This document shows positions 1-13,732 of a stretch of DNA of 14,092 bases, piece by piece. The DNA lies in assembly GCA_029240815.1 (NCBI GenBank), contig JARDZO010000157.1, positions 1 through 14,092 of the forward strand, written 5' to 3'. The notes under the pieces are model-generated. The model saw only the letters and a program-made list of their open reading frames with translations, did not search any database and was not told where the DNA came from. This DNA is from Brevibacillus sp. (GTDB taxonomy: Bacteria > Bacillota > Bacilli > Brevibacillales > Brevibacillaceae). How positions within the stretch are numbered: the stretch's first letter is position 1; each line of letters begins with the position of its first letter. Made by a program: the position numbers and the translations under genes.

Positions 1-1487
1 AAACGGACAAATAGATCTTTCCAATCCCTCAAACGATAGGGGACAGCCGGGCTGACATAGGGAACACCAAAGCTTTCTAGCCGGACTAGATGACTGCACA
101 GCAATAAAAAAAATAAAACCAGCCCGTACAAACCAAATATGGCCGCTGAGAACATGGCGAAAAAGCGGATGATCCGTAGCGATATTCCCAAATTGTACGA
201 GGGTATGGCAAACGACGAGATGGCTGTTACCGCCACGACAATCACCATAATGGGGCTGACGATCCCAGCCTGCACGGCGGCTTGGCCAATGATCAATCCG
301 CCGACAATTCCCATGGCGGGACCAATTGGCTTGGGCAGACGCAGACCTGCTTCCCTCAAAATCTCGATGGATATCTCCATGATCAGTGCTTCCAGCAGGG
401 CAGGGAACGGTACGCTTTGTCTCGATTCGATAATGGAAATGACCAGCTCGGTTGGAATTAATCCTTGATGAAACGAGATAAAGGAAATATACAAAGCAGG
501 TATCAGCATCGAAGCAAATGCAGTAAAGAATCGCAAAAGGCGTATAAACGTGCCGGGGATCCAGCGTTCATAGTAATCTTCCGGCGATTGCAGCAGCATG
601 CTGAATGAAACAGGAGCAATCAAAGCAAACGGCGTTCCATCCAGCAAAATCGCCACCCGCCCATCCATTAATGCACTGATGACGCGGTCCGGACGCTCCG
701 TGCTTTGCACTTGCGGAAAAGGGCTGAGGAAGTCGTCTTCGATCAATTGTTCAACATAGCCGGACTCTCCCAGGTAGTCCAAATTTATCGTAGATATTCG
801 ACTTTTTACTTCTTCGACAAGGGCGGGATCGGCAATTTCTTTCATGTAGGCTATGACTAGCTCTTTTTTCACCCGTACTCCTACATGGAACTTGAGCATG
901 AGCAAGTCAGCGTTTTCGCCGTGCTGCCGTAAGAGGGCCGTATTGTCGCCGAGCGCTTCGGTAAAGCCAACCCTGGGTCCTCTGACCAAAGGCTCGGAGA
1001 CCGGTTCTTCTATATTTCTGGCCTTTTTTTTTACCGTGTCCAGGAGATAAACGACTGCTGATCCTTCTATCCATAACGCTGTGTAGCCCGCCAATACTTT
1101 TGGCTTCCAGACCTTGGCATCATTGGTTTTTTTTCCATCAAGGATGGCTAGAAGCTGTTTGGTTAAATCATCATGGGGAACAGCCTCCGTTTCAGAGGAA
1201 AACTCCTCGTGATGATCCTTCAGTAGGAACTGGCTAATGTGTGGATCGATGAGGCTGCGGTCTGACAGTCCGGACACATAGATCATGGCCGCACGAACGG
1301 CCGATTGCCCAAAGGAAAACTCGCGAATATGCACATCTGAATTTTGCCCGAGCTCCTGCCGAAAAAGCTCCAGATCTCTTTGGTAATCGCCAGTGAACAT
1401 GAGAGAAGACATAGGATTTGAACCAGGATGAGTTCCGTTTTTAGAATGGATTCTCTCCATGCTTCTGTGAAATGTCCGCCTCGTCAT
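1..1487 (-). CDS. GerA-family spore germination protein (GerAA/GerKA/GerBA type), C-terminus cut by window edge
   Basis: This is the A subunit of a nutrient germinant receptor in the spore inner membrane. The frame is open without a stop from ATG at 1487 to base 1, about 495 codons. The first ~300 residues are hydrophilic and carry GerA-family stretches such as [16 protein letters not shown] and [16 protein letters not shown] membrane part begins near W309 ([18 protein letters not shown]), followed by several hydrophobic helices including [20 protein letters not shown]. The last visible segment ([19 protein letters not shown]) is typical of the family's extreme C-terminus, so only a few tens of residues should be missing. 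The start follows AAGAGTG. An ATG two codons upstream is followed at once by TAA and cannot be used. The B and C subunit genes, if present, lie beyond the left edge. It is transcribed away from the phosphonate operon and is probably functionally unrelated to it. Confidence 0.95.
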
Positions 1488-1767: not shown

Positions 1768-1795
1768 TTGAAATGTTTAGACAATTAGGTATAAT
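1768..1795 (+). promoter_or_regulatory. SigA-type promoter of the phosphonate operon
   Basis: TTGAAA (1768-1773) and a perfect TATAAT (1790-1795) are separated by 16 bases. Transcription would start near 1802, giving a leader of about 110 bases before the binding-protein gene. It is the best housekeeping promoter seen in the control region and the only good candidate upstream of the transporter genes. Confidence 0.75.
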
Positions 1796-1829
1796 AAAAA
1801 CAAAAAACAACTAAAAAACGGGAAAACAA

Positions 1830-1914: not shown

Positions 1915-2970
1915 ATGAAAAAATGGTACGGCTCTTTCTTCGCAGGTGTATTGCTTCTAGCGGCACTCACAGGTTGTGGACAGTCTTCCAATCCGGCTTC
2001 TGGTGGCAAAGGCTCATCTGAATTGACCGTGTACACGGCTCTGGAGGATGACCAGCTAAAGGCATACGTCGGTGCATTTAACACAGCTCACCCCGAAATC
2101 AAGCTGAACATTGTCAGGGACTCGACGGGAGTTATCATCGCCAAGCTGATTGCTGAGAAGGACAACCCGCAAGCAGACGTCGTCTGGGGTACGGCTGCGA
2201 CCGAGCTGCTGGGGGCTGAAGCGCAGAACGTGCTGGAAGGGTACTCGCCCAAAGGGATTGAACGCATTGTCCCTGAGTTCAAGGACTCCAAGGATCCTGC
2301 TCATTGGGTGGGCATCGATGCTTTCGAGACCGCGTTTGTCGTCAACACCAAAGAATTGGAAAAGCACAACCTGCCAGTCCCACAGTCGTATGCCGACCTG
2401 ATCAAGCCCGAGTATAAAGGGATGATCGTCATGCCCAATCCTTCCTCGTCAGGAACCGGCTTCTTCACCGTCTTTGCTTGGCTGCAGCTCCAGGGTGATC
2501 CAGCGGCTTGGAGCTACATGGATAAACTTCACGAGAACATCGCTCTGTACACGCACTCTGGTTCAAAACCGGCAAAAATGGCAGCTTCAGGGGAGTATCC
2601 AATCGGCATCTCCTTTGGCTACCGAGGCATTACGGAAAAGAAAAAGGGTGCACCACTTGAGATCGTGTTTCCAAAAGAGGGCGCAGGCTGGGATGTCGAA
2701 GCCAATGCACTCGTGAAAAAGGCCAAGATCAAACCAGAAGCCAAGGTGTTCCTCGACTGGGCGATCTCCGATGAAGCGATGAAGGAGTACAACAAAAACT
2801 TCGCGATTATTACATTGCAAGATGCAGGCAGCGGTATCCCCGAAGGCTATACGAAAGAACCGAAATCTCAGCTGATCAAAAACGACTTGATTCAGGCATC
2901 AGCCGATCGACCCAAGATCCTGGCAGAGTGGGATAAGCGTTACAGCACAAAGAGCGAGCCGAAACAGTGA
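1915..2970 (+). CDS. ABC transporter substrate-binding lipoprotein, probably for 2-aminoethylphosphonate
   Basis: 351-residue extracytoplasmic binding protein of the iron/AEP-binding (PhnS2/AepX-like) group. Residues 1-21 form a lipoprotein signal peptide: MKK, a hydrophobic core, then lipobox LTGC with Cys21 as the lipidated residue. The mature part starts with [18 protein letters not shown] and has the [14 protein letters not shown] and [14 protein letters not shown] stretches typical of family 1 solute-binding proteins. ATG 1915 is chosen over an in-frame start at 1873 because GGGGAGGG lies just upstream and the signal peptide begins there. It is the first gene of the operon, followed by its ATPase and permease. 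Ligand assignment rests on the neighbours phnX and phnW; the fold alone would also allow iron or another small anion. Confidence 0.9.
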
Positions 2971-3030
2971 GTGACGAGGCGTATTCGCATCTTTTCTTAC
3001 ACCAAGCAAAAGGAAGAAGGGAGGAGCCGT

Positions 3031-4089
3031 ATGACAAAGCCATATCTCAGCATTCAAGGAATCAGAAAAACCTTTGGCAAGTTTGTAGCTCTCACATCGA
3101 TCGATATCGATATTAAAAAAAATGAATTCATTTGCCTGCTTGGCCCCAGTGGTTGTGGCAAGACGACATTACTCCGCATTTTGGCGGGGTTGGAGCAGCC
3201 TACGAGCGGGCGCATCTTGGTCAATGATCGTGACATTACGGTTCTCCCGCCTGCCAAACGAAACTTCGGGATGATGTTCCAATCCTACGCCCTTTTTCCC
3301 AATCTGACGGCAGCGCAAAATATCGCCTATGGACTTTACTCGAAGAAATGGTCCAAAAAGGACATCGAGGATAAAGTACGGGAAGTGCTGGCGCTGATCG
3401 ATTTGGAGCACATCCGTGACAAGTACCCATCTCAGCTCTCTGGCGGACAACAACAACGGGTCGCCTTGGCCCGTGCGATCGCACTGTCACCTGACTTCTT
3501 ATTGCTGGATGAGCCGCTGTCAGCGCTAGATGCCAAGGTCCGACTCAAGCTACGTCGAGAATTGCGTAGCTTGCATGAAAAAATCGGCATCACGACGATC
3601 ATGGTGACTCACGACCAGGATGAGGCATTGACCATGGCGGATCGGATCGTGGTCATGAACAATGCGGAGGTCGTTCAAATCGGCTCTCCGCAAGAAATTT
3701 ACGAAAGGCCAAACAGTCCGTTTGTAGCTGACTTCGTAGGTGCGATCAATTTCCTCGAGGAGTCTGTATTCAATGGGGGGACGATCAATCAAGACAGGCT
3801 CTTTGCGATTCGACCCGAGAACATTCACCTGATGGATCCGGCAGCCGAGTACAGTCTCAAAGCGATCGTGCAAGATATGGAATTTCGCGGTTCGTTTTAC
3901 CGTGTCACTCTGCAACTCATCAATCTACAGAACGGTCTGCTCCCGCAGCTGGTCACGATGGATATGCCTGTCAACCAGACACACCGGATGGGACTTTCCC
4001 GAAACAAGCAGGTCGCATTTGAACTGCCGATGGAAAATTTGATTTCGTTTGATCAGGCAGCCGTGACAACGAAGACGGGGAGTGGTTGA
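3031..4089 (+). CDS. ABC transporter ATP-binding protein, AEP uptake
   Basis: 352-residue cytoplasmic ATPase that powers the transporter encoded around it. All nucleotide-binding motifs are present: Walker A GPSGCGKTT (38-46), Q-loop around Q84, signature LSGGQQQR (136-143), Walker B FLLLDE (156-161) and H-loop His194. Residues from about 235 onward form a TOBE-like C-terminal regulatory domain, as in spermidine/iron/AEP importers (PotA/FbpC/PhnT2-like). ATG 3031 is chosen because GGGAGG lies six bases upstream. An upstream GTG at 2971 directly after the previous stop would add 20 atypical residues. The permease starts four bases after its stop codon. Confidence 0.93.
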   Translation: MTKPYLSIQGIRKTFGKFVALTSIDIDIKKNEFICLLGPSGCGKTTLLRILAGLEQPTSGRILVNDRDITVLPPAKRNFGMMFQSYALFPNLTAAQNIAYGLYSKKWSKKDIEDKVREVLALIDLEHIRDKYPSQLSGGQQQRVALARAIALSPDFLLLDEPLSALDAKVRLKLRRELRSLHEKIGITTIMVTHDQDEALTMADRIVVMNNAEVVQIGSPQEIYERPNSPFVADFVGAINFLEESVFNGGTINQDRLFAIRPENIHLMDPAAEYSLKAIVQDMEFRGSFYRVTLQLINLQNGLLPQLVTMDMPVNQTHRMGLSRNKQVAFELPMENLISFDQAAVTTKTGSG

Positions 4090-4093
4090 ACCA

Positions 4094-5794
4094 ATGAGCA
4101 CACGAACCGTTGGCCAGAAAATGGGCAGGGATGAATGGCTGCAAAAGATACTCGTCAGCGGAATTGTCATCGTGCTTTTCATCAGTGTACTGTTGCCGCT
4201 GGGAGATTTGTTCAGCAGAGCATTTATTAATGAAAGCGGCCAGTTCATCGGACTCGCCAACTTCGTTAGGTATTTTGCGACTCCGGCTCTCGTGCGGTCA
4301 TTTGGCAACACGATGTACGTCTCCGGAATTACCACAGTCTTGTCGGTGGCACTCGCGTTTCTGTATGCATTCGCCCTGACGCGAACGGACATGAGAGGAA
4401 AAGTGTTTTTCCGGTACGTAGCTTTGCTGCCACTGTTTGCACCTACGATGATGCATGGGATCGCGCTGACTTACTTGTTCGGCAACCAAGGTATTTTGAC
4501 CACAGGTTTTTTCGGTGTATTACCGGGCTTTGACATGGAGCTGTACGGTCCATTGGGGATCATTGTGTCGGAAGTCATTTACACCTTTCCGCAGGCATAC
4601 CTGATCATGGCGGTGTCGCTTTCCTTTGCGGACTACAATCTGTACGAAGCAGCCGAGACGATGGGGGCAGGGAAGCTGCGCAAGTTCCTCACCGTCACCT
4701 TACCGAACGTCAAATACGGGCTGATCAGCGCCATCTTTGTCTGTTTCACCTTGAGCTTTACTGATTTCGGTGCACCCAAGGTAGTAGGTGGACAATTCAA
4801 CGTACTGGCTACGGACATTTACAAGCAGGTGATCGGTCAGCAAAACACGACAATGGGTGCAACCGTAGGTATCATTTTGATTCTGCCTGCGATCCTGGCC
4901 TTCATCGTGGATCGGATTGTGGAGCGCAAGCAAAATTCATCCGTCTCTGCCAAATCCACCCCGTACAAAATCACATCACAGCGTGGACGGGACACTGCTT
5001 TCTTTGTCTACTGCTCGCTGATCGCCGCTTCGATCTTTGTCATGCTGGGGACGGTGATCTTCGCTTCGTTGGTAAAGGTGTGGCCGTATGATCTGACAAT
5101 GACATTATTGCACTACGACTTTTCCAAGGTGGCAGGTGAAGGGCTGCAACCGTTCTGGAACAGCCTGCTCGTTTCCTTTTACAGCGCAGCAGCGGGTACG
5201 GTCATTACTTTCGTCAATGCGTACTTGATTGAAAAGACTCGCTTTATGAAAGGACTGCGGCAGGTGGGATACTTCCTTTCCATTTTGCCGCTCGCCTTGC
5301 CTGGTCTGGTGATTGGTCTCGCCTACATCTTTTTCTTTAACCATCCTGACAATCCGCTGAACTGGATGTACGGCTCGATTTTGATCCTGGTTTTGGCCAA
5401 TCTCATTCACTTTTATGCAGTACCGTTCATCTCGGCAACGACCGCGCTGAAAAAACTGGACAAAGAATTCGAGCTCGCATCCGAATCGATGGGTGTTCCG
5501 TTCTACGTCACGTTTTGGCGGGTGACGGTGCCGATGTCACTGCCAGCCATCCTGGAAAATGCCGTCTACTATTTTATCAACTCGATGGTGACCATCTCTG
5601 CCGTCGTCTTTCTTTACTCGGCCGATTTTAAACTGGCTTCCGTATCCATTGTCAACATGGATGATGCAGGGGATGTGGCTCCAGCGGCTGCCATGTCCGT
5701 ACTCATCGTCCTGACCAATGTACTGGTGCGGATCGTCTATGAGATTGGTACAAAGAAATGGCGAGAAAAGACAGGGGCATGGCAAAAAAGATAA
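4094..5794 (+). CDS. Fused two-domain ABC permease, AEP uptake (PhnU2-like)
   Basis: 566-residue inner-membrane protein holding two binding-protein-dependent permease (MetI-like) domains in one chain, so one polypeptide replaces a permease heterodimer. The first half has about six helices and an EAA loop at EAAETMGAGKLRKFLTVTLP. The second half repeats the plan with LASESMGVPFYVTFWRVTVP. Fused permeases of this length are characteristic of the iron (FbpB) and AEP (PhnU2) importer families. ATG 4094 follows GGGGAGTGG by about ten bases; a GTG at 4082 overlaps the ribosome binding site and is less likely. The phnX start lies 14 bases past its stop. Confidence 0.93.
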   Translation: MSTRTVGQKMGRDEWLQKILVSGIVIVLFISVLLPLGDLFSRAFINESGQFIGLANFVRYFATPALVRSFGNTMYVSGITTVLSVALAFLYAFALTRTDMRGKVFFRYVALLPLFAPTMMHGIALTYLFGNQGILTTGFFGVLPGFDMELYGPLGIIVSEVIYTFPQAYLIMAVSLSFADYNLYEAAETMGAGKLRKFLTVTLPNVKYGLISAIFVCFTLSFTDFGAPKVVGGQFNVLATDIYKQVIGQQNTTMGATVGIILILPAILAFIVDRIVERKQNSSVSAKSTPYKITSQRGRDTAFFVYCSLIAASIFVMLGTVIFASLVKVWPYDLTMTLLHYDFSKVAGEGLQPFWNSLLVSFYSAAAGTVITFVNAYLIEKTRFMKGLRQVGYFLSILPLALPGLVIGLAYIFFFNHPDNPLNWMYGSILILVLANLIHFYAVPFISATTALKKLDKEFELASESMGVPFYVTFWRVTVPMSLPAILENAVYYFINSMVTISAVVFLYSADFKLASVSIVNMDDAGDVAPAAAMSVLIVLTNVLVRIVYEIGTKKWREKTGAWQKR

Positions 5795-5808
5795 AGGTGG
5801 GGAGTGTT

Positions 5809-6603
5809 ATGATTCAAGCAGTGATCTTTGACTGGGCTGGAACAACCGTTGACTATGGATGCTTCGCGCCCCTCGATGTCTTTTTGGAGGTGTTTAAAAA
5901 GCGAGGCATTGATGTCACCCACGAGGAAGCGCGTGAACCGATGGGAATGCTCAAATGGGATCACATCGACACGATGCTGAAGATGGAGCGCGTGGCGAAT
6001 TTGTGGAAGGACAAATTCGGCAGACTCCCTGAGAAAAAAGACGTCGACATGCTGTATGCCGATTTTGAGCCGATGCTGTTTTCCATTTTAAAAAACTACA
6101 CGTCGCCCATTCCGGGTGTGCTGGAATTGGTGGGACGATTGCGGGCAGCCGGACTCAAAATCGGATCGACGACCGGATATACGGCAGAAATGATGGCTGT
6201 CGTGGCACCTGAGGCAAAAAAGAAAGGCTATGCGCCTGATTCGATGGTCACACCGAGCGAGATGCCGGCTGGGCGTCCCTTCCCGTGGATGTGCTACCAA
6301 AACGCGATCAATCTGGATGTTCACCCGATGAAGCACATCATCAAGGTGGGGGATACGACCAGCGATATAAAGGAAGCGGTGGCTGCAGGTGCATGGGCAG
6401 TGGGGGTAATCAAAGGGAGCAGTGAGCTTGGAATGACGGAGCGAGAGGTGCATGAATGTGACCCTGACGTGCTGTTTGACAAAATGGAGGCTGTAACGAA
6501 GCGATTCAAGGCTGTCGGTGCCGATTATGTGATCGAATCCATCGGTGAGCTGGATACGCTGATTCCCAAAATCAACCTGCGCCTGGCGCAAAAGGAGAGA
6601 TAA
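5809..6603 (+). CDS. phnX: Phosphonoacetaldehyde hydrolase (phosphonatase)
   Basis: 264-residue HAD-superfamily enzyme that hydrolyses the C-P bond of phosphonoacetaldehyde to acetaldehyde and phosphate. The nucleophile motif DWAGTTVD has Asp8, with Ala10 where most HAD phosphatases have a second Asp; this is diagnostic of PhnX. The Schiff-base lysine is Lys49 in GMLKWDH. Further HAD motifs are STTGYT and [20 protein letters not shown], with acidic metal-binding residues. The length equals that of Bacillus phosphonatases. ATG 5809 is preceded by GGTGGGGAG; an earlier in-frame ATG at 5758 overlaps the permease and adds residues before the conserved start. No extra N- or C-terminal targeting peptide is visible. 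Its product, acetaldehyde, is the expected substrate of the dehydrogenase at 9364. Confidence 0.97.
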
Positions 6604-6605
6604 CG

Positions 6606-7718
6606 ATGAAACTCACTCAATTGCCTGACAATCCGTACCTCTTGTTGACTCCGGGACCGCTCTCGACCTCCAAGGGAGTAAAGGCAGCCATGCTGCGTGA
6701 CTGGTGCACCTGGGACAACGAGTACAATGATCTGGTCCAGGTGATCCGACGTAAGCTAGTTGGTTTGGCCGGCGCTAACCACGACGACTACACTACCGTG
6801 CTCATGCAGGGGAGCGGCAGTTTTTCCGTAGAAGCGGTAGTCGGTTCAGTAGTTCCGGCAGATGGAAAGCTGGTTGTTTTGACCAATGGTGCTTATGGGA
6901 ATCGTCTCGCCCAAATGGCGCAGGTGCTGAAAATTGATACGCAGGTGCTCGACTTTGGGGAAGTGTCCCCCGCGGAGGCTGGAAAACTGCGTGAGACTTT
7001 GGAGAACGATCCTCAAATCACGCACGTCGCAGTCGTCCATTGTGAAACGACAACCGGCATGCTCAACCCGATCGACCAAGTCGCCAAAGTGGCAAAAGAG
7101 TCCGGCAAGGTATTGATCGTCGATGCGATGAGCAGCTTTGGCGGGATCGCGATCGATGTGGCAGGTCTGGGTATCGACTTTTTGATCAGCAGTGCCAATA
7201 AATGCATTCAGGGTGTGCCCGGCTTTGGATTTATTTTGGCCAAGACAGAAGAACTGAAAAAATGCAAGGGCCAGGCGCGATCGCTCTCGCTGGATTTGTA
7301 CGATCAGTGGGAAACGATGGAAAAGCATAACGGCAAGTGGCGCTATACCTCTCCTACACACGTCGTTCGCGCCTTCTACCAAGCACTGGCGGAGTTAGAA
7401 GAGGAAGGCGGCGTGGAAAAGCGTCAGGTGCGGTATCGCGAGAATCAACGCACGTTGGTCGAAGGAATGGAGCGTCTCGGCTTTTCTACACTGCTGACCC
7501 GAGAGTGGCAGTCGCCAATCATTACTTCCTTTTACTTCCCAGAGAGTCCGACGTTTACATTTGCAGCGTTTTACGAGCGATTGAAAAAGGAAGGCTTCGT
7601 CATCTATCCAGGCAAAATCTCCGTGGCAGATACATTCCGGATCGGCAATATCGGGGAGGTCTACCCGCATGATATGAAACGACTCGTGCAGGCTGTTGAA
7701 CAAAATATATTCTGGTAA
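6606..7718 (+). CDS. phnW: 2-aminoethylphosphonate:pyruvate transaminase
   Basis: 370-residue PLP-dependent class V aminotransferase. It transfers the amino group of AEP to pyruvate, giving phosphonoacetaldehyde and alanine, the step just before PhnX. The start reads [19 protein letters not shown], the usual PhnW opening. [20 protein letters not shown] (Asp173 near the PLP ring) and [13 protein letters not shown] with the Schiff-base Lys199 are present. ATG 6606 follows AAAGGAGAG and lies two bases after the phnX stop, so the two genes are tightly coupled. PhnW and PhnX encoded together define the phosphonatase pathway for AEP. No targeting extension is visible at either end. Confidence 0.97.
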
Positions 7719-7724
7719 TCCCCT

Positions 7725-8510
7725 ATGTCTCTAGCAGGCGAAGAGCGAAAAGACCTCATCATCGATATGATCAACTCACGAGGCAAAGTCAGAACAAGCG
7801 AGCTTGTAGATAAATTGCAAGTCTCCTCGGAAACGATTCGGCGTTATTTGGAGGAGCTCGAGCATGATAAAAGGCTTAAGCGGGTGTACGGAGGAGCGAT
7901 CAAGATCCATTTTGATCGGGAAGAACCCTCTCACCTGACGCGGGAAGTAGCCTTTGCGGACGAGAAAAAACGCATCGCCCGTACTGCGGCAAGCCTTGTG
8001 CAGGACAACGAAGTGGTACTGATCGACGATGGAACGACGACGATGCACATGCTCCCGTATTTGCTCAGCCGCAAGAATCTTTGCTTCATCACCATCTCGG
8101 TGCCAGCGTTGAATCTCTTGATGGACTACCAGAACAAAGGGTTGCTTAGCGGTGAGGTGTACTTCATTGGTGGGAAAGTACAGTCCAAACATTTTCGCTC
8201 AGTAGGCACGCTTGCCGAAAAAATGATGCAAGACTTTTTCGTCGACAAGTCCTTTCTCTCGATCGACGGCATCCAGGCTCATTATGGAATCTCCAGTTAT
8301 GACGCGGAGAAAGCCATGCTCGCCAAACGGTTTATCGAAAATGCAAAGGAGACGATCGTGCTCACGGATCACTCCAAGATTGGCATCAGCACCTTTTACA
8401 AGATCGCGGATCTGAGAGAGACAGATGTGGTTGTCAGTGACGTACCGTTCCCCAAAGAATGGGGCAGTGAGCTGGAAGCAAAAGACGTGAATTGGATAGT
8501 GGCAGAGTAA
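7725..8510 (+). CDS. DeoR-family transcriptional regulator
   Basis: 261-residue regulator. Residues 1-57 form the DeoR winged helix-turn-helix (EERKDLIIDMI, then VSSETIRRYLEELE and RVYGGA). The rest is the DeoR effector domain of the sugar-isomerase-like fold, with DDGTTT at 101-106 and LTDHSKIG at 214-221. The family usually represses nearby operons and senses a phosphorylated metabolite. AEP or phosphonoacetaldehyde would be reasonable ligands here, but that is inference. It starts six bases after phnW. No good Shine-Dalgarno sequence precedes ATG 7725 (only a TGGT-like match), so translation may depend on coupling to phnW and be low. It sits at the junction of the phosphonate and shell operons and is the only regulator in the window. 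Confidence 0.92.
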   Translation: MSLAGEERKDLIIDMINSRGKVRTSELVDKLQVSSETIRRYLEELEHDKRLKRVYGGAIKIHFDREEPSHLTREVAFADEKKRIARTAASLVQDNEVVLIDDGTTTMHMLPYLLSRKNLCFITISVPALNLLMDYQNKGLLSGEVYFIGGKVQSKHFRSVGTLAEKMMQDFFVDKSFLSIDGIQAHYGISSYDAEKAMLAKRFIENAKETIVLTDHSKIGISTFYKIADLRETDVVVSDVPFPKEWGSELEAKDVNWIVAE

Positions 8511-8644
8511 GGACAAGGGCGTCAGGGAAGCCCTCTATTTTTCGCGGAAAGTCACAACCAAAATCAATAAAAACAACGAAAAAGCAGAAATTTAACCTGA
8601 TATTCCTTGTTTTAACGAAAGTGTCGGAGAAAGGTGGATACCAC
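8511..8644 (+). promoter_or_regulatory. Intergenic control region ahead of the shell operon
   Basis: This is the largest gap between the regulator and the shell genes. It holds a weak terminator-like hairpin at its left end. To the right, TTTAAC occurs twice exactly 20 bases apart (8591-8596 and 8611-8616), AACGAAA occurs twice (8575-8581 and 8614-8620), and TTGTTTTAAC (8607-8616) resembles the block at 1852-1861. I could not find a convincing -35/-10 pair. The shell operon may therefore depend on read-through from upstream or on a non-consensus promoter. Confidence 0.4.
8516..8542 (+). terminator. Weak terminator-like hairpin after the regulator gene
   Basis: AGGGC (8516-8520) pairs with GCCCT (8530-8534), then CTA and five T residues. 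The five-base-pair stem is short, so it may attenuate rather than stop transcription into the shell genes. Confidence 0.35.
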
Positions 8645-9019
8645 ATGCTCGAAAATGGCTACGCCTTGGGAATGATCGAGACGCTAGGATTCCCCGCCCT
8701 CGTCGCTGCTACAGATGCGGCTGCCAAAGCAGCGGATGTCCGCTGCGTGACGTACCAGGGAGCAGATGCGGGGATCGTCACGATTTACATTGTAGGAGAT
8801 GTTGCCTCTGTGACGGCCGCCGTCTCTGTGGGAGAGGCTGAAGCGAGAAGGATTGGGCAGCTTCTCCACTCCCGCGTCATCCCGCGGCCAGAGCGGAGCG
8901 TCATGCAAATGATCCTGCAGCAGCTGGAAAAAGAAAAAGGCAAACAGGCAACAAAAGCAGCAAGCAAACCGAAAAATAGCGTTCCGGCAACGACTACGCA
9001 AACAAGCAAGGAGGAATAG
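8645..9019 (+). CDS. BMC-H shell protein with C-terminal tail and acidic pore
   Basis: 124-residue microcompartment shell protein with a single BMC domain (about residues 5-95), which forms hexameric facet tiles. Recognisable features are [20 protein letters not shown], the lysine of DAAAK matching the inter-hexamer edge lysine of PduA, and RVIPRPE. The pore-loop positions that read GGG in the two neighbouring shell proteins read Asp41-Ala42-Gly43 here. Residues 97-124 are a Lys/Ala/Thr-rich tail absent from the paralogues. ATG 8645 follows AAGGTGG; a frame extension back to 8492 overlaps the regulator gene and is not credible. It is the first gene of the shell operon. Its divergence from the other two suggests a distinct position or pore selectivity in the shell. 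Confidence 0.93.
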
Positions 9020-9021
9020 AC

Positions 9022-9303
9022 ATGGGAGATGCATTGGGTATGGTGGAAACGAAGGGTTTGATCGGAGCTGTGGAAGCAGCTGATGCCATGGTGAAAGCAG
9101 CGAATGTCAAGCTGATCGGGAAGGTGCACGTCGGCGGTGGTCTCGTGACCGTTATGGTTCGCGGAGATGTAGGAGCGGTAAAAGCATCTACAGACTCAGG
9201 CGCAGCGGCAGCGGAAAAAGTGGGCGAACTCGTCTCCGTACATGTCATCCCGCGCCCTCACTCGGATATCGAGCTGATTCTGCCCAAACTCGAGCAATCG
9301 TAA
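9022..9303 (+). CDS. BMC-H shell protein, EutM/PduA type (copy 1)
   Basis: 93-residue single BMC domain protein, the standard hexameric facet tile. It opens [20 protein letters not shown] with edge lysine Lys25, has the pore loop HVGGG at 36-40 and ends [18 protein letters not shown]. The GGG pore matches EutM of ethanolamine metabolosomes rather than the GSG of PduA. It starts two bases after the preceding shell gene, with AAGGAGGA as ribosome binding site. Its protein differs at only two aligned positions from the shell protein at 10856, although the two genes differ silently at about half of their codons. Confidence 0.97.
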
Positions 9304-9363
9304 GTGAAACCGCCGAACATAGCGCAAGACTCGTAAATGGCTGAGAAGAGGTGACGGTATATC

Positions 9364-10842
9364 GTGATGCTAGATAGAGAATTGCAATCAGTTCAGGAAG
9401 TGCGCCAATGTCTGGCGCAAGCCACTGGCGCGCAAAAACACCTGCAAGCCATGTCGCAAAGTCAAATCGATCAGATCGTACAACGCATGGCCGAGGCCGC
9501 TCGATCGGAAGCGGACCGCCTGGCGGCATTAGCTGTAGAGGAAACCGGATATGGCCGAGTAGCGGATAAAACGGTGAAAAATTTGTTCGCAGCAAACGAT
9601 GTCTATCAATCGATCAAAGACAAGAAAACGGTCGGGATCATTCGGCGCGATGAGCAAAACAGAGTATGGGAGATCGCGCAGCCAGTGGGAGTCATCGCAG
9701 GGATTGTTCCATCTACCAATCCTACTTCTACGGTGATTTTCAAGGCACTCATTTCCGTAAAGGCGGGCAACGCTATCGTGTTCAGCCCCCATCCTCAAGC
9801 TGCCAAGTGTACGAAGGAAGCGGCGGCCCTCATGCAGGCAGCGGCAGAGCGTGCTGGCGCTCCGGCAGGATTGATCTCCTGCATTACGGAGCCTACGTTG
9901 GAAGCTACGCAGGAACTGATGAGGCACAGCAAAACAGATGTCATCCTCGCCACGGGCGGGACGGCGATGGTAAAAGCTGCTTACGGCTCAGGTAAGCCTG
10001 CTTATGGTGTCGGACCAGGCAATGTGCCAGTATACATCCACGCCAGTGCGGATATCGCAAGGGCGATCCGCCAAACGATCCAGAGCAAAACGTTTGATTA
10101 TGGAACGATTTGCGCTTCTGAACAGGCATTGGTGGTGGACAAATCGATCAAGCGAAAGGTCGTTGCCGAGCTGAAGCAGCAAGGGGCCTATTTTCTCGAC
10201 GACCATGAGCGAAAGCGGGTATCGGCAATCATCATGAAAGCGGAGGGGCTCAATCCGGCGATTGTCGGCAAATCACCGCAATCGATAGCCGAACTGGCGG
10301 GCATCCTGGTTCCGGAAGACGCCAATCTGTTGATTGCCGAAGAAAGGGAGATCGGGCTTGATTATCCGTTTTCCGTAGAAAAGCTGGCCCCGATTCTCGC
10401 CTTGTACACGGCGAATGACACGGCAGAAGCGAGCAGCATTTGTACGCGACTGCTGGAGTTAGGTGGATTGGGACATACCATTGGCTTGCATTGTGAGGAT
10501 ACACAGGTGATCGAGACGTTCGTGCTGGATAAACCGGCTTCCAGAATTGTCGTCAACTCGGGCACGACTTTCGGCGGAATCGGAGCTACTACGGGCATCG
10601 TACCTTCTCTTACACTGGGCTGCGGCTCGGATGGCAACAATGTCACCTCGGACAATATCGGACCTGAACACCTATTCAATATCAAGCGCGTCGCCTTTGG
10701 ACTTCGCGAGATGGAGCTGGGAAATACTCCGGTGGCACCACCATCCACTAACTCCACAGCGGCTCCTGCAGCGATCAGCAGGGACGAAATCGCCCAGATT
10801 ATCAAGAGTGTATTACTAGAATTACAGTCTACCAAACGGTAA
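9364..10842 (+). CDS. CoA-acylating aldehyde dehydrogenase of the microcompartment (EutE/PduP type)
   Basis: 492-residue enzyme expected to oxidise acetaldehyde to acetyl-CoA with NAD+ and CoA. Family features are PVGVIAGIVPSTNPTSTVIF (107-126), ISVKAGNAIVFSPHP, GVGPGNVPVYI and the catalytic Cys250 in FDYGTICASEQA. The C-terminus extends past the fold with a Pro/Thr/Ser/Ala linker (about 453-471) and an amphipathic helix at 472-492 (core DEIAQIIKSVLLEL). That is the design of a BMC encapsulation peptide. The N-terminus starts directly with the enzyme's own helices, so it lacks the N-terminal peptide of PduP. GTG 9364 lies nine bases after AGAGGTGA; the adjacent ATG 9367 is an alternative. It sits between two near-identical shell genes and is the core cargo enzyme. 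The aldehyde supplied by PhnX fits acetaldehyde better than propionaldehyde. Confidence 0.95.
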   Translation: MMLDRELQSVQEVRQCLAQATGAQKHLQAMSQSQIDQIVQRMAEAARSEADRLAALAVEETGYGRVADKTVKNLFAANDVYQSIKDKKTVGIIRRDEQNRVWEIAQPVGVIAGIVPSTNPTSTVIFKALISVKAGNAIVFSPHPQAAKCTKEAAALMQAAAERAGAPAGLISCITEPTLEATQELMRHSKTDVILATGGTAMVKAAYGSGKPAYGVGPGNVPVYIHASADIARAIRQTIQSKTFDYGTICASEQALVVDKSIKRKVVAELKQQGAYFLDDHERKRVSAIIMKAEGLNPAIVGKSPQSIAELAGILVPEDANLLIAEEREIGLDYPFSVEKLAPILALYTANDTAEASSICTRLLELGGLGHTIGLHCEDTQVIETFVLDKPASRIVVNSGTTFGGIGATTGIVPSLTLGCGSDGNNVTSDNIGPEHLFNIKRVAFGLREMELGNTPVAPPSTNSTAAPAAISRDEIAQIIKSVLLELQSTKR

Positions 10843-10855
10843 GGGGGTATAAAGA

Positions 10856-11143
10856 ATGGCAGGAGAAATGGGAGCACTGGGAATGGTAGAAACAAAAGGA
10901 TTGATTGGAGCAGTTGAGGCGGCCGATGCCATGGTGAAGGCAGCCAATGTCAAGCTGATTGGAAAAGTGCATGTAGGCGGTGGTTTGGTAACCGTCATGG
11001 TGCGCGGGGATGTGGGAGCGGTAAAAGCATCGACCGATGCAGGCGCGGCAGCGGCGGAAAAAGTGGGAGAACTAAAATCCGTGCATGTCATCCCGCGCCC
11101 GCATTCGGATATCGAGTTGATCTTGCCCAAGCTGGAAGGGTAA
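10856..11143 (+). CDS. BMC-H shell protein, EutM/PduA type (copy 2)
   Basis: 95-residue single BMC domain protein, nearly the same protein as the one at 9022. From ALGMVETKG to PKLE (88 positions) only Ser/Ala in TD[S/A]G and Val/Lys in GEL[V/K]SV differ. The GGG pore and edge lysine are conserved. Its N-terminus is two residues longer ([10 protein letters not shown]). ATG 10856 follows AAGGGGGT at normal spacing; an internal ATG at 10868 has AGGAG only two bases away and is less likely. It lies 13 bases after the aldehyde dehydrogenase and is a duplicate facet protein that could mix with copy 1 in hexamers or facets. Confidence 0.96.
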
Positions 11144-11154
11144 TGGTCTAGCCT

Positions 11155-11943
11155 ATGGCTTTGATTACGGAATCAACATTGCGGGCCATGCTGCGATCTG
11201 GGATTCCCAATCCTTATCTTGTCCGCGCCGATGACAAATTCACCCCGGCAGCCATCGATTTTCTAAAGGGGAGAGGGATCAAAGTGGAAGCTTTCCAATC
11301 GTCAGATGCCTTAACGTCCAATAGCGTACGTTCAAATGAACTCAGCATCCCGGTAGGCGTATCCAACCGGCATGTTCACTTGTCCCAGGAAGATGTCGAG
11401 AAGTTGTATGGGGTTGGCTACCAGCTGACCCCGCTGCGACCTCTCTCCCAGCCCGGACAGTTCGCAGCGAAGGAGACGGTGACGCTCCTCGGCCCAAAAG
11501 GAAACATCAAAGGAGTGCGTATACTCGGACCTGCGCGAGGAGCCAGCCAGGTGGAAATATCCAAAACAGATGGATTTGCGCTCGGTATTCATCCGCCGAT
11601 CAGAGTGTCTGGCTCTCTGGAGGGAACACCTGGCGTCACGCTCATTGGGTCGAGCGGCTTCGTATCACTCCCAAAAGGGGTGATTGTGGCGAAATGTCAT
11701 GTTCACATGTCTGATGCTGATGCTCGTACGTCAGGCGTTCAGGATGGCGACAGCCTGATCCTGCAGATGAGAGGGGAGCGCGCTCTTATCTTTCCGGACG
11801 TAATCGTGCGAGTCAGCCCCACATATGCGCTGGATTTTCACATCGACCTGGACGAAGCCAACGCAGCTAATTTGTCTACGGGTGACGTGGTGCATCTGAT
11901 CGGCAAAAATGGCAAACTGTTTTCCACAACAGGGAGGTGGTAG
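11155..11943 (+). CDS. pduL: PduL-type phosphotransacylase with EutT-like N-terminal module
   Basis: 262-residue BMC phosphotransacylase that converts acetyl-CoA and phosphate to acetyl phosphate and recycles CoA inside the shell. Zinc-site motifs are NRHVHLS (His73, His75) and KCHVHMSDADA (His182, His184), with PGQFAAKETV and a later His229, as expected for the two halves of PduL. Typical PduL proteins are shorter; the extra ~60 N-terminal residues contain ITESTLRAML and FTPAAIDFLKGRGIKV, which resemble the first ~50 residues of EutT. The module may have a targeting or binding role. ATG 11155 has only a weak ribosome binding site, so coupling to the shell gene 11 bases upstream is likely. 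PhnX releases phosphate, the co-substrate of this enzyme. Confidence 0.93.
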   Translation: MALITESTLRAMLRSGIPNPYLVRADDKFTPAAIDFLKGRGIKVEAFQSSDALTSNSVRSNELSIPVGVSNRHVHLSQEDVEKLYGVGYQLTPLRPLSQPGQFAAKETVTLLGPKGNIKGVRILGPARGASQVEISKTDGFALGIHPPIRVSGSLEGTPGVTLIGSSGFVSLPKGVIVAKCHVHMSDADARTSGVQDGDSLILQMRGERALIFPDVIVRVSPTYALDFHIDLDEANAANLSTGDVVHLIGKNGKLFSTTGRW

Positions 11944-11945
11944 AC

Positions 11946-12743
11946 ATGGATGTCCGCCAGATGATCGAGTCTATCACGCGAGAAATTATGCAGTCGATGA
12001 GTATGCCCCAGGTAAAAAGGCCGAAATGGCTGTTCATCTTTTGTGACAGCAAGGCGCATGAGTCGTTCTCCGACCAGTTTATCGCCCTGCAGAATCACGG
12101 AATCTGTCATGATATTCTGTTTTTAGATGGGGAGACCTCCTCGTGGCTCGGCATGCATCGCATTGAGTGCACCGGGGCAGGCAAGATCATCGCGACAGAC
12201 GAGTATGCGCCTGCTCCGCTGGAGTTGCCAAAAGAATACGACGGGATCGTGATCCCGGAAATCGATCTGGACAATGCAGCACGGGTGGTCGCAGGACTAA
12301 AGGGGACCATCAAGGCGGAAATCATTTTTTCTGCACTTGTCTTGGGCAAGCCCGTCTTGGTGGGAGAAGACGGGCCTGGCGTTAAACGCTCCGACCGTCG
12401 CTGCCTTAAGACATTAACCTTACCAGGGCCGTACCACAAGCTGTTTCAGCGTCATGTGAACGACATGAAGGAGCTGGGGATCGAGTTTGCTGCACAAAAG
12501 GGATTGGCAGAATCCATCATCCGCAAGAACAGGGCAAGTCAGCAGGCAGCGGAACACGCACAGTCCATTCCGGATTCGCAAGGTCAACAACCCGTAACGG
12601 TGAAGCTGCTCTCAGCTGACTGGGTGAAATCACAATCAGACTTTCCCGATCAGACGCTGGTCCTGCGGCAGGGAGCAATCGTCTCTCCACTGGCGATGGA
12701 CTTGCTCAAAGAGAAAGGGATCGCAGTCCACTTCATGCGATAA
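11946..12743 (+). CDS. BMC-associated protein with flavoprotein-like fold, function unknown
   Basis: 265-residue protein I cannot assign to a reaction. Residues 1-20 form an amphipathic helix (core DVRQMIESITREIMQ) like an encapsulation peptide. Residues 27-195 look like a Rossmann-type flavoprotein domain: strands WLFIFCDS and HDILFLDG, then YDGIVIPEIDLDNAARVVAG, which follows the pattern of the PF02441-type flavoprotein loop. A conserved-looking block GEDGPGVKRSDRRCLKTLTL (140-159) follows. A linker of about 25 polar residues leads to a C-terminal module (VLRQGAIVSPLAMDLLKEKG) like the one at the PduL N-terminus. ATG 11946 follows GGGAGGTGG and lies two bases after pduL; a GTG at 11937 sits inside that ribosome binding site. 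It may bind FMN for electron transfer or help cofactor recycling, but no substrate can be named. Confidence 0.9.
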   Translation: MDVRQMIESITREIMQSMSMPQVKRPKWLFIFCDSKAHESFSDQFIALQNHGICHDILFLDGETSSWLGMHRIECTGAGKIIATDEYAPAPLELPKEYDGIVIPEIDLDNAARVVAGLKGTIKAEIIFSALVLGKPVLVGEDGPGVKRSDRRCLKTLTLPGPYHKLFQRHVNDMKELGIEFAAQKGLAESIIRKNRASQQAAEHAQSIPDSQGQQPVTVKLLSADWVKSQSDFPDQTLVLRQGAIVSPLAMDLLKEKGIAVHFMR

Positions 12744-12755
12744 AGGGGGAGCGCC

Positions 12756-13031
12756 ATGTTTTTGGGAAAAGTGATCGGCAGTGTCTGGTCCACACAAAAA
12801 GAAGAGGGCATGGAGAATTTGAAGCTGCTGGTTGTCCAGCCCATTGACTGGAACGATAACGAGGGTGGACGAACGGTGATTGCAGCTGACCGCATCGGAG
12901 CGGGCTTTGGTGAAAAGGTCATCGTTTCTTCGGGCACTCCTGCGCGGATCATTTTTCACAACAAGATGGTCCCCATCGATGCCGTCATCGTAGGAATTGT
13001 GGACTCTTATGAAGTTACACAAGAGACATGA
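12756..13031 (+). CDS. EutN/CcmL-type BMC vertex protein (BMC-P pentamer)
   Basis: 91-residue pentameric protein that caps the vertices of the polyhedral shell. It shows the family opening FLGKVIGSVWST, then LKLLVVQPIDW, the AADRIGAGFGEKVIVSSG block and the ending PIDAVIVGIVDSYEV. ATG 12756 follows GGGGGAG and lies 12 bases after the preceding gene. It is the only vertex protein in the window and the last gene of the operon, followed at once by a strong terminator. With the three BMC-H proteins it gives a complete minimal set for facets and vertices. Confidence 0.96.
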   Translation: MFLGKVIGSVWSTQKEEGMENLKLLVVQPIDWNDNEGGRTVIAADRIGAGFGEKVIVSSGTPARIIFHNKMVPIDAVIVGIVDSYEVTQET

Positions 13032-13033
13032 AA

Positions 13034-13074
13034 AGCAAGAAGGTGTAGTCTGTAGAAGACAACACCTTCTTGCT
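13034..13074. terminator. Strong bidirectional terminator closing the microcompartment operon
   Basis: AGCAAGAAGGTGT (13034-13046) pairs perfectly with ACACCTTCTTGCT (13062-13074), 13 base pairs. The apical loop can form a further GTCT/AGAC stem. A moderately T-rich tail follows on the plus strand, and TTTT follows the stem on the minus strand (13034-13031). It starts three bases after the eutN-like stop codon. Confidence 0.9.
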
Positions 13075-13137
13075 GTTTCCGTTTCTTCAAAACTTTCCGC
13101 TAAAACGCGGTCGATCTTCCATGAATAGCTGTGGAGG

Positions 13138-13493: not shown

Positions 13494-13732
13494 TTACTCG
13501 GGAGTCGTGATGAACGCTTCCGCCTCGATCTCGACTAGCACCTCAGGCTCGATCAGTGTTTGACCTCGACCATCGTCGCAACCGGTTGAATGTTCCGGAA
13601 AAATTCGCCGTGCGCTTTTCCGATTTCTTCCCATTTGGATATATCCGTGACGATCATTCTCGTTCTCACCACATGGGACATATCTGCTCCCAGTTCCTGC
13701 AGAGCTGATTCGATGGCTTCAAGAATGATCCT
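13494..13732 (-). pseudogene. RidA/YjgF-family remnant: truncated at the 5' end and frameshifted
   Basis: On the minus strand, from 13732, the frame reads ILEAIESALQELGADMSHVV, then TRMIVTDISKWEEIGKAHGE and PVATMVEVK, and stops early. Shifting one base after VEVK restores LIEPEVLVEIEAEAF and TTPE with a stop at 13496-13494. The joined sequence matches the second half of RidA proteins (enamine/imine deaminases that remove reactive 2-aminoacrylate). The break is explained by one missing base in the T-run at 13559-13561. The N-terminal half is absent: TGA and TAG codons stand directly upstream of 13732 in that frame. A sequencing error could cause the frameshift, but not the missing first half, so the gene is probably dead. 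It is flanked by the two copies of the 70-bp repeat. Confidence 0.75.

Follow-up and report, generated by a model that had tools for sequence, protein, structure and literature searches.

A proposed 2-aminoethylphosphonate metabolosome in Brevibacillus: an ethanolamine-type shell operon with phosphonatase as the probable aldehyde source

What supplies the aldehyde to a metabolosome whose operon stands next to genes for phosphonate breakdown? The question is raised by a stretch of Brevibacillus sp. DNA of 14,092 nucleotides (apparently the complete contig JARDZO010000157.1; the whole stretch is hereafter called the window), in which genes for the uptake and cleavage of 2-aminoethylphosphonate (AEP; the phn genes) are separated by a DeoR regulator gene from the operon of a bacterial microcompartment (BMC), all on the plus strand. 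We believe it highly probable that the two parts form a dedicated AEP metabolosome, i.e., a compartment of the ethanolamine (EUT) type in which ethanolamine ammonia-lyase is replaced by phosphonatase (PhnX). This belief is founded on the gene content over profile cut-offs, the adjacency of phnX and shell genes, a clade of the PhnX concerned, the split of the shells into phn and eut sides, the separate eut shells of the same genomes, and a motif common to both transcription units.

All 13 genes that a previous reading of the letters alone (the sequence-only reading) had placed on the plus strand are present at its coordinates, each with a start and a stop codon (Table 1). Families were assigned with NCBIfam and Pfam profiles at curated cut-offs, and the AEP uptake and phosphonatase set that it had called complete, PhnS2/T2/U2, PhnX and PhnW (1915-7718), lies entirely over the NCBIfam cut-offs. 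The operon that it had described as a full metabolosome (8645-13031) does contain BMC-H and BMC-P shell proteins, an acetylating aldehyde dehydrogenase (AldDH) and the phosphotransacylase PduL, in the order BMC-H, BMC-H, AldDH, BMC-H, PduL, OrfX, BMC-P; the word "full" goes too far, as neither an alcohol dehydrogenase nor a BMC-T gene was identified in the window. The OrfX gene (11946-12743), which had been left unnamed, belongs to this operon, and proteins of B. nitrificans, B. choshinensis and B. centrosporus match its product with 84-86% identity. As had been claimed, the genes identified in the window include neither ethanolamine ammonia-lyase, nor diol dehydratase, nor a glycyl radical enzyme.

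A passage of PMC8154272 gives alanine, phosphate and acetaldehyde as the products of PhnW and PhnX from AEP. In the mechanism that we propose, AEP would be imported by PhnS2T2U2, as the families suggest; PhnW would form alanine and phosphonoacetaldehyde by transferring the amino group of AEP onto pyruvate, and PhnX would split phosphonoacetaldehyde into acetaldehyde and phosphate. Inside the shell of BMC-H and BMC-P, AldDH and PduL would turn acetaldehyde into acetyl-CoA and acetyl phosphate, with coenzyme A recycled on the inside. We presume that PhnX most likely acts in or at the lumen, because phnX, more than phnW, stays beside the shell genes, and that PhnW acts in the cytosol. The DeoR repressor would probably turn on both transcription units upon AEP or its product, and the alanine dehydrogenase of some relatives would return pyruvate and free ammonia. 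PduL needs one phosphate per acetyl-CoA. Considering that phosphate is both the product of PhnX and the substrate of PduL, the two enzymes could be coupled inside the shell, and we tentatively propose, as a possibility on the doubtful side of even, that the phosphate is used on the spot: the compartment would be self-sufficient in phosphate, phosphorus released from the C-P bond would be exported in acetyl phosphate and finally pass into ATP, AEP would be a source of carbon, nitrogen, phosphorus and energy, and phosphonatase would be the signature enzyme.

The arrangement is found in other genomes. Relatives were collected by comparing exact short words of PduL with 84,980 species genomes, which gave 471 relatives, and the best 80 loci were kept. 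The shell operon is carried by 23 of these 80 (L001-L022 and L024; L022 without a match to the first BMC-H), and phnX lies within the fetched flank in 13 of the 23 (L001, L002, L006-L015, L017). Together with the phn-shell clusters fetched later (L111, L131, L132, L133 and L113/L114, the last pair counted as one cluster joined by inference across a contig break), the total comes to 19 clusters with this shell family beside phnX, the window included. Of the ten phn-type loci from outside Brevibacillus, nine have a gap of 53-108 bp between the end of phnX and the first shell gene; the tenth (L014) is frameshifted and falls outside this measurement. The position of phnW varies: it may be upstream, in L008 it is on the opposite strand, and in L010 it follows the shell genes. 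An alanine dehydrogenase gene stands directly behind the shell genes in six loci (TIGR00518 in the one checked). Such recurrent adjacency in several genera, the clade of shell-linked PhnX and the motif common to both units speak for the earlier suggestion that phosphonatase is the aldehyde source.

The remaining ten of the 23 loci have no phn gene within the fetched flank. The sequence-only reading had named homologous shell operons without phn genes as an observation that would tell against it, and literally such operons do exist; yet all ten carry eutB, with the same acetaldehyde product, as well as genes called eutA and eutW downstream, and eutC and eutL are each present in eight of the ten. 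The eutB and eutL labels were checked with a hidden Markov model in one locus (L016), and EutA, EutC, EutP, EutS, EutV and EutW are presumed labels, given with the help of gene order. None of the 13 phn-type loci, in turn, has the eutB cluster within its fetched flanks. Since eutB would also make acetaldehyde, we consider that the loci without phn genes argue for a swap of the aldehyde source: by its gene content, this is one shell operon in two forms that differ in the predicted origin of acetaldehyde.

The phylogenies agree in part with this view. In the PhnX tree (60 rows), all 18 shell-linked PhnX, L113 being counted as linked, fall in one starred clade (97/90) of 20 rows; the other two rows are L130, whose shell locus has decayed, and L119, a free PhnX that branches within the clade. 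Outside the clade are 39 of the 40 free PhnX and one tandem copy from L010. The tree thus indicates that the shell-linked PhnX share common descent. In the tree of four concatenated shell proteins (29 rows) the phn and eut sides are divided with support 79/99, in 76% of bootstraps and not starred, and a single origin of the phn shells appears likely. In seven non-Brevibacillus phn-type genomes the eut shells lie on a clearly different AldDH branch, so the phn shell of these genomes would not have been copied from their own eut shell. As to the tandem copy, L010 has two different phnX genes in a row before its shell operon (L010:5693-7643), and the first belongs to another PhnX branch.

Whether the shell might still serve ethanolamine was judged from the 13 phn-type genomes. 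The sequence-only reading had pointed to a co-regulated aldehyde source elsewhere as an alternative. In terms of gene content, eutB is present in 12 of the 13 genomes, with a second set of shell genes beside it in nine; one (G007) has no eutB and only the phn shell, and three are less clear. The glycyl radical enzyme profile PF02901 has no match in G007, G008, G011 and G002 (0/4); the diol dehydratase profile PF02286 also gives 0/4 there, in a search whose control gave no match anywhere.

Linkage was also counted in a census. Among 398 Bacilli genomes, phnX is found in 39 (45 matches), a BMC-P gene in 75, and both in 25. For six of the 45 phnX matches the distance to a BMC-P gene is 10 kb at most, which is more than chance, as random placement of phnX would give 0.17. 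The corresponding Poisson figure of about 3e-8 is not a fair probability, because the loci are close kin, two of the six (G001, which is the sample centre, and G002) were known before the census, and one (G153) is the decayed locus L130. In that locus (L130:8599-10722) there is no match to the BMC-H genes, AldDH or most of pduL (residues 1-204). In the other two classes, phnX occurs in 12 of 391 Clostridia genomes and 9 of 369 Gammaproteobacteria genomes.

A common regulation of the two units is suggested by an operator-like motif. The 14-base AAAACAACNAAAAA, with one mismatch allowed, has two matches in the window (1804-1817 and 8570-8583) against 0.01 expected, and ACAACNAAAA has four (the same two, one at 8554 and one inside phnS2) against 0.12; the motif was picked after reading the upstream regions, and such expectations flatter it. 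Two loci of the same gene order (L133 and L131) have exact ACAACNAAAA at both promoter regions. Considering that the motif is common to both promoter regions, the DeoR repressor probably controls both transcription units, by putative binding at these sites. L131 has two more motif sites between a divergent saccharopine-dehydrogenase-like gene and an mgtC gene. Sigma-70-like sites are no more numerous in the region than by chance. The spacer between deoR and the first BMC-H gene is not unusual as RNA (z -1.4), and an Rfam scan of the window gave no match at gathering scores.

PhnX aligns to the solved PhnX 2iof over 254 residues, with Asp and Lys conserved at aligned positions 12 and 53, which we take to be the catalytic Asp and the Schiff-base Lys. 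PduL aligns to the solved 5cuo, and its N-terminal extension is conserved. Residues 1-451 of AldDH align to the solved 5j78; the last 41, a linker and a helix-like end, are outside the match and are kept in all 22 relatives listed. The BMC catalogue PMC8217296 describes, in its part on type I AldDH, a C-terminal encapsulation peptide (EP), and the conserved linker and helix-like C-terminus of the window AldDH fit this type. AldDH, PduL and OrfX carry EP-like ends, i.e., predicted targeting signals. Ranked among the segments of their own proteins, the hydrophobic moments of the OrfX N-terminus, the AldDH C-terminus and the PduL N-terminus are at the 100th, 96th and 94th percentiles; this test does not discriminate, because the C-termini of PhnX (96th) and PhnW (99th) score as high. 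The predicted fold of OrfX is flavoprotein-like, in a middling model (pLDDT 73, pTM 0.56).

A number of observations weigh against a dedicated AEP metabolosome. Its weakest point is the absence of a recognisable targeting peptide in PhnX: no N- or C-terminal extension resembling one is seen, and the ends are about the same in shell-linked and free PhnX. Among Bacilli, 39 of the 45 phnX matches have no shell nearby, and none of the 21 phnX stretches from Clostridia and Gammaproteobacteria gave a shell gene by tblastn, the stretches L151 and L169 being under 5 kb and several others being cut by contig ends; as a control, the same search found the shells in L036, L048, L065 and L133. Two of these stretches, L167 and L168, have aldehyde dehydrogenase matches at 28% and 38% identity. 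For the recycling of NAD, no alcohol dehydrogenase was identified among the window's genes. The AldDH-only tree (39 rows) needs two label changes for phn and does not recover the split. The motif, chosen in hindsight, is clear only in close kin of the window: L001 has AAAACAAC at both promoter regions, a partial match; L132 has AAAACAAC at the phn promoter and lacks the motif before the shell genes, and in L002 and L006 nothing upstream of the shell matches it. The decayed locus L130 retains its phn genes, deoR, orfX and BMC-P despite the loss of most of the shell operon. Finally, G008 and G011 combine eutB (in two pieces in G011) with the phn shell as their sole shell; in G010 a second eutB is situated between the phn shell and the eut shell, some 10 kb from the former; and G002 has a single shell, beside phn and with EutL, its eut module with EutS and without BMC-H being elsewhere, so that the G002 shell may be shared by both substrates.

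The strongest competitor concerns the place of the enzymes: PhnW and PhnX could both be cytosolic, and the compartment, with only AldDH, PduL and OrfX inside, would take up acetaldehyde and be linked to AEP without an encapsulated signature enzyme. The EP-like ends of these three proteins and the lack of an EP-like extension in either Phn enzyme are in its favour; known metabolosomes, however, produce their aldehyde inside the shell, phnX is constantly next to the shell in the non-Brevibacillus loci, unlike phnW, which changes place or strand, and the C-terminal helix of PhnX looks amphipathic, though seemingly likewise in free PhnX. On balance we consider a wholly cytosolic route unlikely, albeit less so than the explanations that follow. 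The shell operon could instead be an ethanolamine compartment with its eut enzymes encoded elsewhere and the phn genes as mere neighbours, which is improbable in our opinion. The shell is indeed EUT-like, eutB is somewhere in 12 of the 13 phn-type genomes, G002 looks as if its shell were in joint use, and the phn shell is the sole one in G008 and G011 despite the presence of eutB; still, nine of the 13 have a second, eut shell, G007 does without eutB, the phn shells are not adjoined by EutV/EutW-type genes such as the eut loci have, and the separate clade of linked PhnX and the operator-like motif at both units also tell against it. Slighter yet is the likelihood that the compartment mainly confines phosphonoacetaldehyde, PhnW and PhnX both acting inside and the handling of acetaldehyde being secondary. 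Both enzymes are in the cluster and phosphonoacetaldehyde is itself an aldehyde, but phnW is far from the shell or divergent to it in several loci (L008, L010), and AldDH is of the acetaldehyde family. That two ordinary operons lie together by chance in one genome, for which one may cite how common shell-less phn clusters are, is scarcely credible: the linkage recurs in several genera with different gene orders, the clade and motif evidence adds to this, and chance is refuted at the level of genome comparison.

Compared with known systems, the AEP metabolosome proposed here is closest to the EUT metabolosome of Paenibacillus/Brevibacillus (EUT2-like), with which it shares the operon order BMC-H, AldDH, BMC-H, PduL, OrfX, BMC-P, the EP-like C-terminal end of AldDH, the acetaldehyde chemistry, an EutE-type AldDH and EutM-type BMC-H. 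It differs in that the window is without EutABC, EutL, EutS, EutP and EutVW and has PhnX/PhnW, an AEP importer and DeoR instead; we class it apart from EUT because a search for EutBC in the window was negative. In the SPU (sugar phosphate utilisation) metabolosome, as proposed in a passage of PMC8217296, a DeoC-type aldolase makes acetaldehyde for the shell AldDH; there too, on that account, the aldehyde comes from an enzyme that is not an ammonia-lyase, whereas an aldolase and an RpiB-type enzyme stand where the window has phosphonatase. For RMM2, a passage of PMC4207490 considers an aminotransferase as the upstream enzyme, which is a likeness; the substrate class is another one and C-P bond chemistry is not involved. 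The hydrolytic AEP pathway of shell-less bacteria has the same PhnW-PhnX enzymes and products, but in the clusters examined neither a shell nor an acylating AldDH nor PduL accompanies them.

In the main text of the two BMC-locus catalogues, PMC8217296 and PMC4207490, no word beginning with phosphon- occurs; the locus may stand in their supplements under another label. Among open full-text papers, excluding preprints and most subscription journals, no title or beginning of an abstract concerns a phosphonate compartment, and the passages of PMC3909097 on AEP genes deal with phnY/phnZ and make no link to shells. The adjoining phn and shell genes, apparently under a common switch, suggest a bacterial organelle for phosphonate feeding, of which we have seen no description. 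A passage of PMC8217296 notes that, in many metabolosomes of the catalogue, an aldehyde dehydrogenase is present but an evident aldehyde-making enzyme is lacking. If our proposal is true, phosphonatase would be a new kind of signature enzyme and phosphonates a new substrate class. AEP is the commonest natural phosphonate, and the organelle would therefore be tied to the phosphorus cycle. The proposal further suggests a route to new compartments, in which an acetaldehyde-handling shell is kept and the feeding enzyme is exchanged. It should soon be testable, since close kin of the window are named Brevibacillus species.

Table 1. Genes and putative signals of the proposed AEP metabolosome in the window (positions from the first letter of the window)
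Feature	Position	Strand	Basis
Sigma-70-like promoter of the phn operon, TTGAAA-16-TATAAT, 11/12	1768..1795	+	sequence scan; similar sequence at the same place before phnS2 in close relatives
Operator-like motif AAAACAACTAAAAA, proposed DeoR site	1804..1817	+	directly 3' of the phn promoter; one of only two matches in the window
PhnS2, AEP substrate-binding protein	1915..2970	+	TIGR03261, 452 bits (cut-off 393)
PhnT2, AEP transporter ATPase	3031..4089	+	TIGR03265, 471 bits (cut-off 458)
PhnU2, AEP transporter permease	4094..5794	+	TIGR03262, 777 bits (cut-off 593)
PhnX, phosphonoacetaldehyde hydrolase, proposed signature enzyme	5809..6603	+	TIGR01422, 361 bits (cut-off 220); in Pfam only PF00702/PF13419
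PhnW, AEP:pyruvate aminotransferase	6606..7718	+	TIGR02326, 601 bits (cut-off 401); solved PhnW 9kk8
DeoR-family regulator	7725..8510	+	PF08220 and PF00455 over cut-off
Short hairpin and T-rich stretch, possible terminator after deoR	8516..8534	+	fold; similar sequence in close relatives; absent from the terminator-scan list
Shorter operator-like motif ACAACCAAAA	8554-8563	+	upstream of the shell operon
Operator-like motif AAAACAACGAAAAA	8570..8583	+	between deoR and the first shell gene
BMC-H 1, C-terminal tail	8645..9019	+	PF00936 over Pfam cut-off
BMC-H 2, EutM-like	9022..9303	+	PF00936 over cut-off; NF012018 just under cut-off
AldDH, CoA-acylating acetaldehyde dehydrogenase, EutE type, linker and C-terminal amphipathic helix	9364..10842	+	TIGR02518, 642 bits (cut-off 620)
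BMC-H 3, EutM-like, near copy of BMC-H 2	10856..11143	+	PF00936 over cut-off
PduL phosphotransacylase, N-terminal extension of ~60 residues	11155..11943	+	PF06130; NF011652, 262 bits (cut-off 209); solved PduL 5cuo
OrfX, N-terminal amphipathic helix and flavoprotein-like domain	11946..12743	+	weak TIGR02536, 39 bits (cut-off 153)
BMC-P (EutN/CcmL), shell vertex	12756..13031	+	PF03319 over cut-off
Long hairpin at the 3' end of the last shell gene and beyond it, possible terminator	13030..13079	+	fold, -29 kcal/mol

Some minor observations on the genes may be added. BMC-H 2 and BMC-H 3 are 83% identical in DNA over 263 nt (9031-9293 against 10874-11136); the extra EutM-like copy is also present in the Brevibacillus sub-group L001, L131-L133, and the other mapped phn-type loci have one EutM-like gene. 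BMC-H 1 has only a short tail in the window and a long C-terminal extension in many relatives, that of L013:7724-8224 having a weak Rho_N-like match. In L014 (Peribacillus), a number of genes, phnX, AldDH and a BMC-H among them, are broken up over several frames, from decay or poor sequence.

Two neighbours recur around these clusters; their labels, like those of the GABA-permease-like and alanine dehydrogenase genes, were each checked in one representative. A saccharopine-dehydrogenase-like oxidoreductase, an uncharacterised phosphonate-associated gene, is found in phn clusters with and without a shell (L007:256-1488, L117, L118, L123, L113, L002, L006), and an mgtC-family gene lies near phn-type clusters (L017:4700-5245 and eight other phn-type loci). 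In the window itself, the phn operon is adjoined by a gene for a GerA-type spore germination protein (3-1487, minus strand; PF03323), and at 13494-13681, also on the minus strand, two short open reading frames that overlap in different frames resemble fragments of a single small protein, which we take to be perhaps RidA-like.

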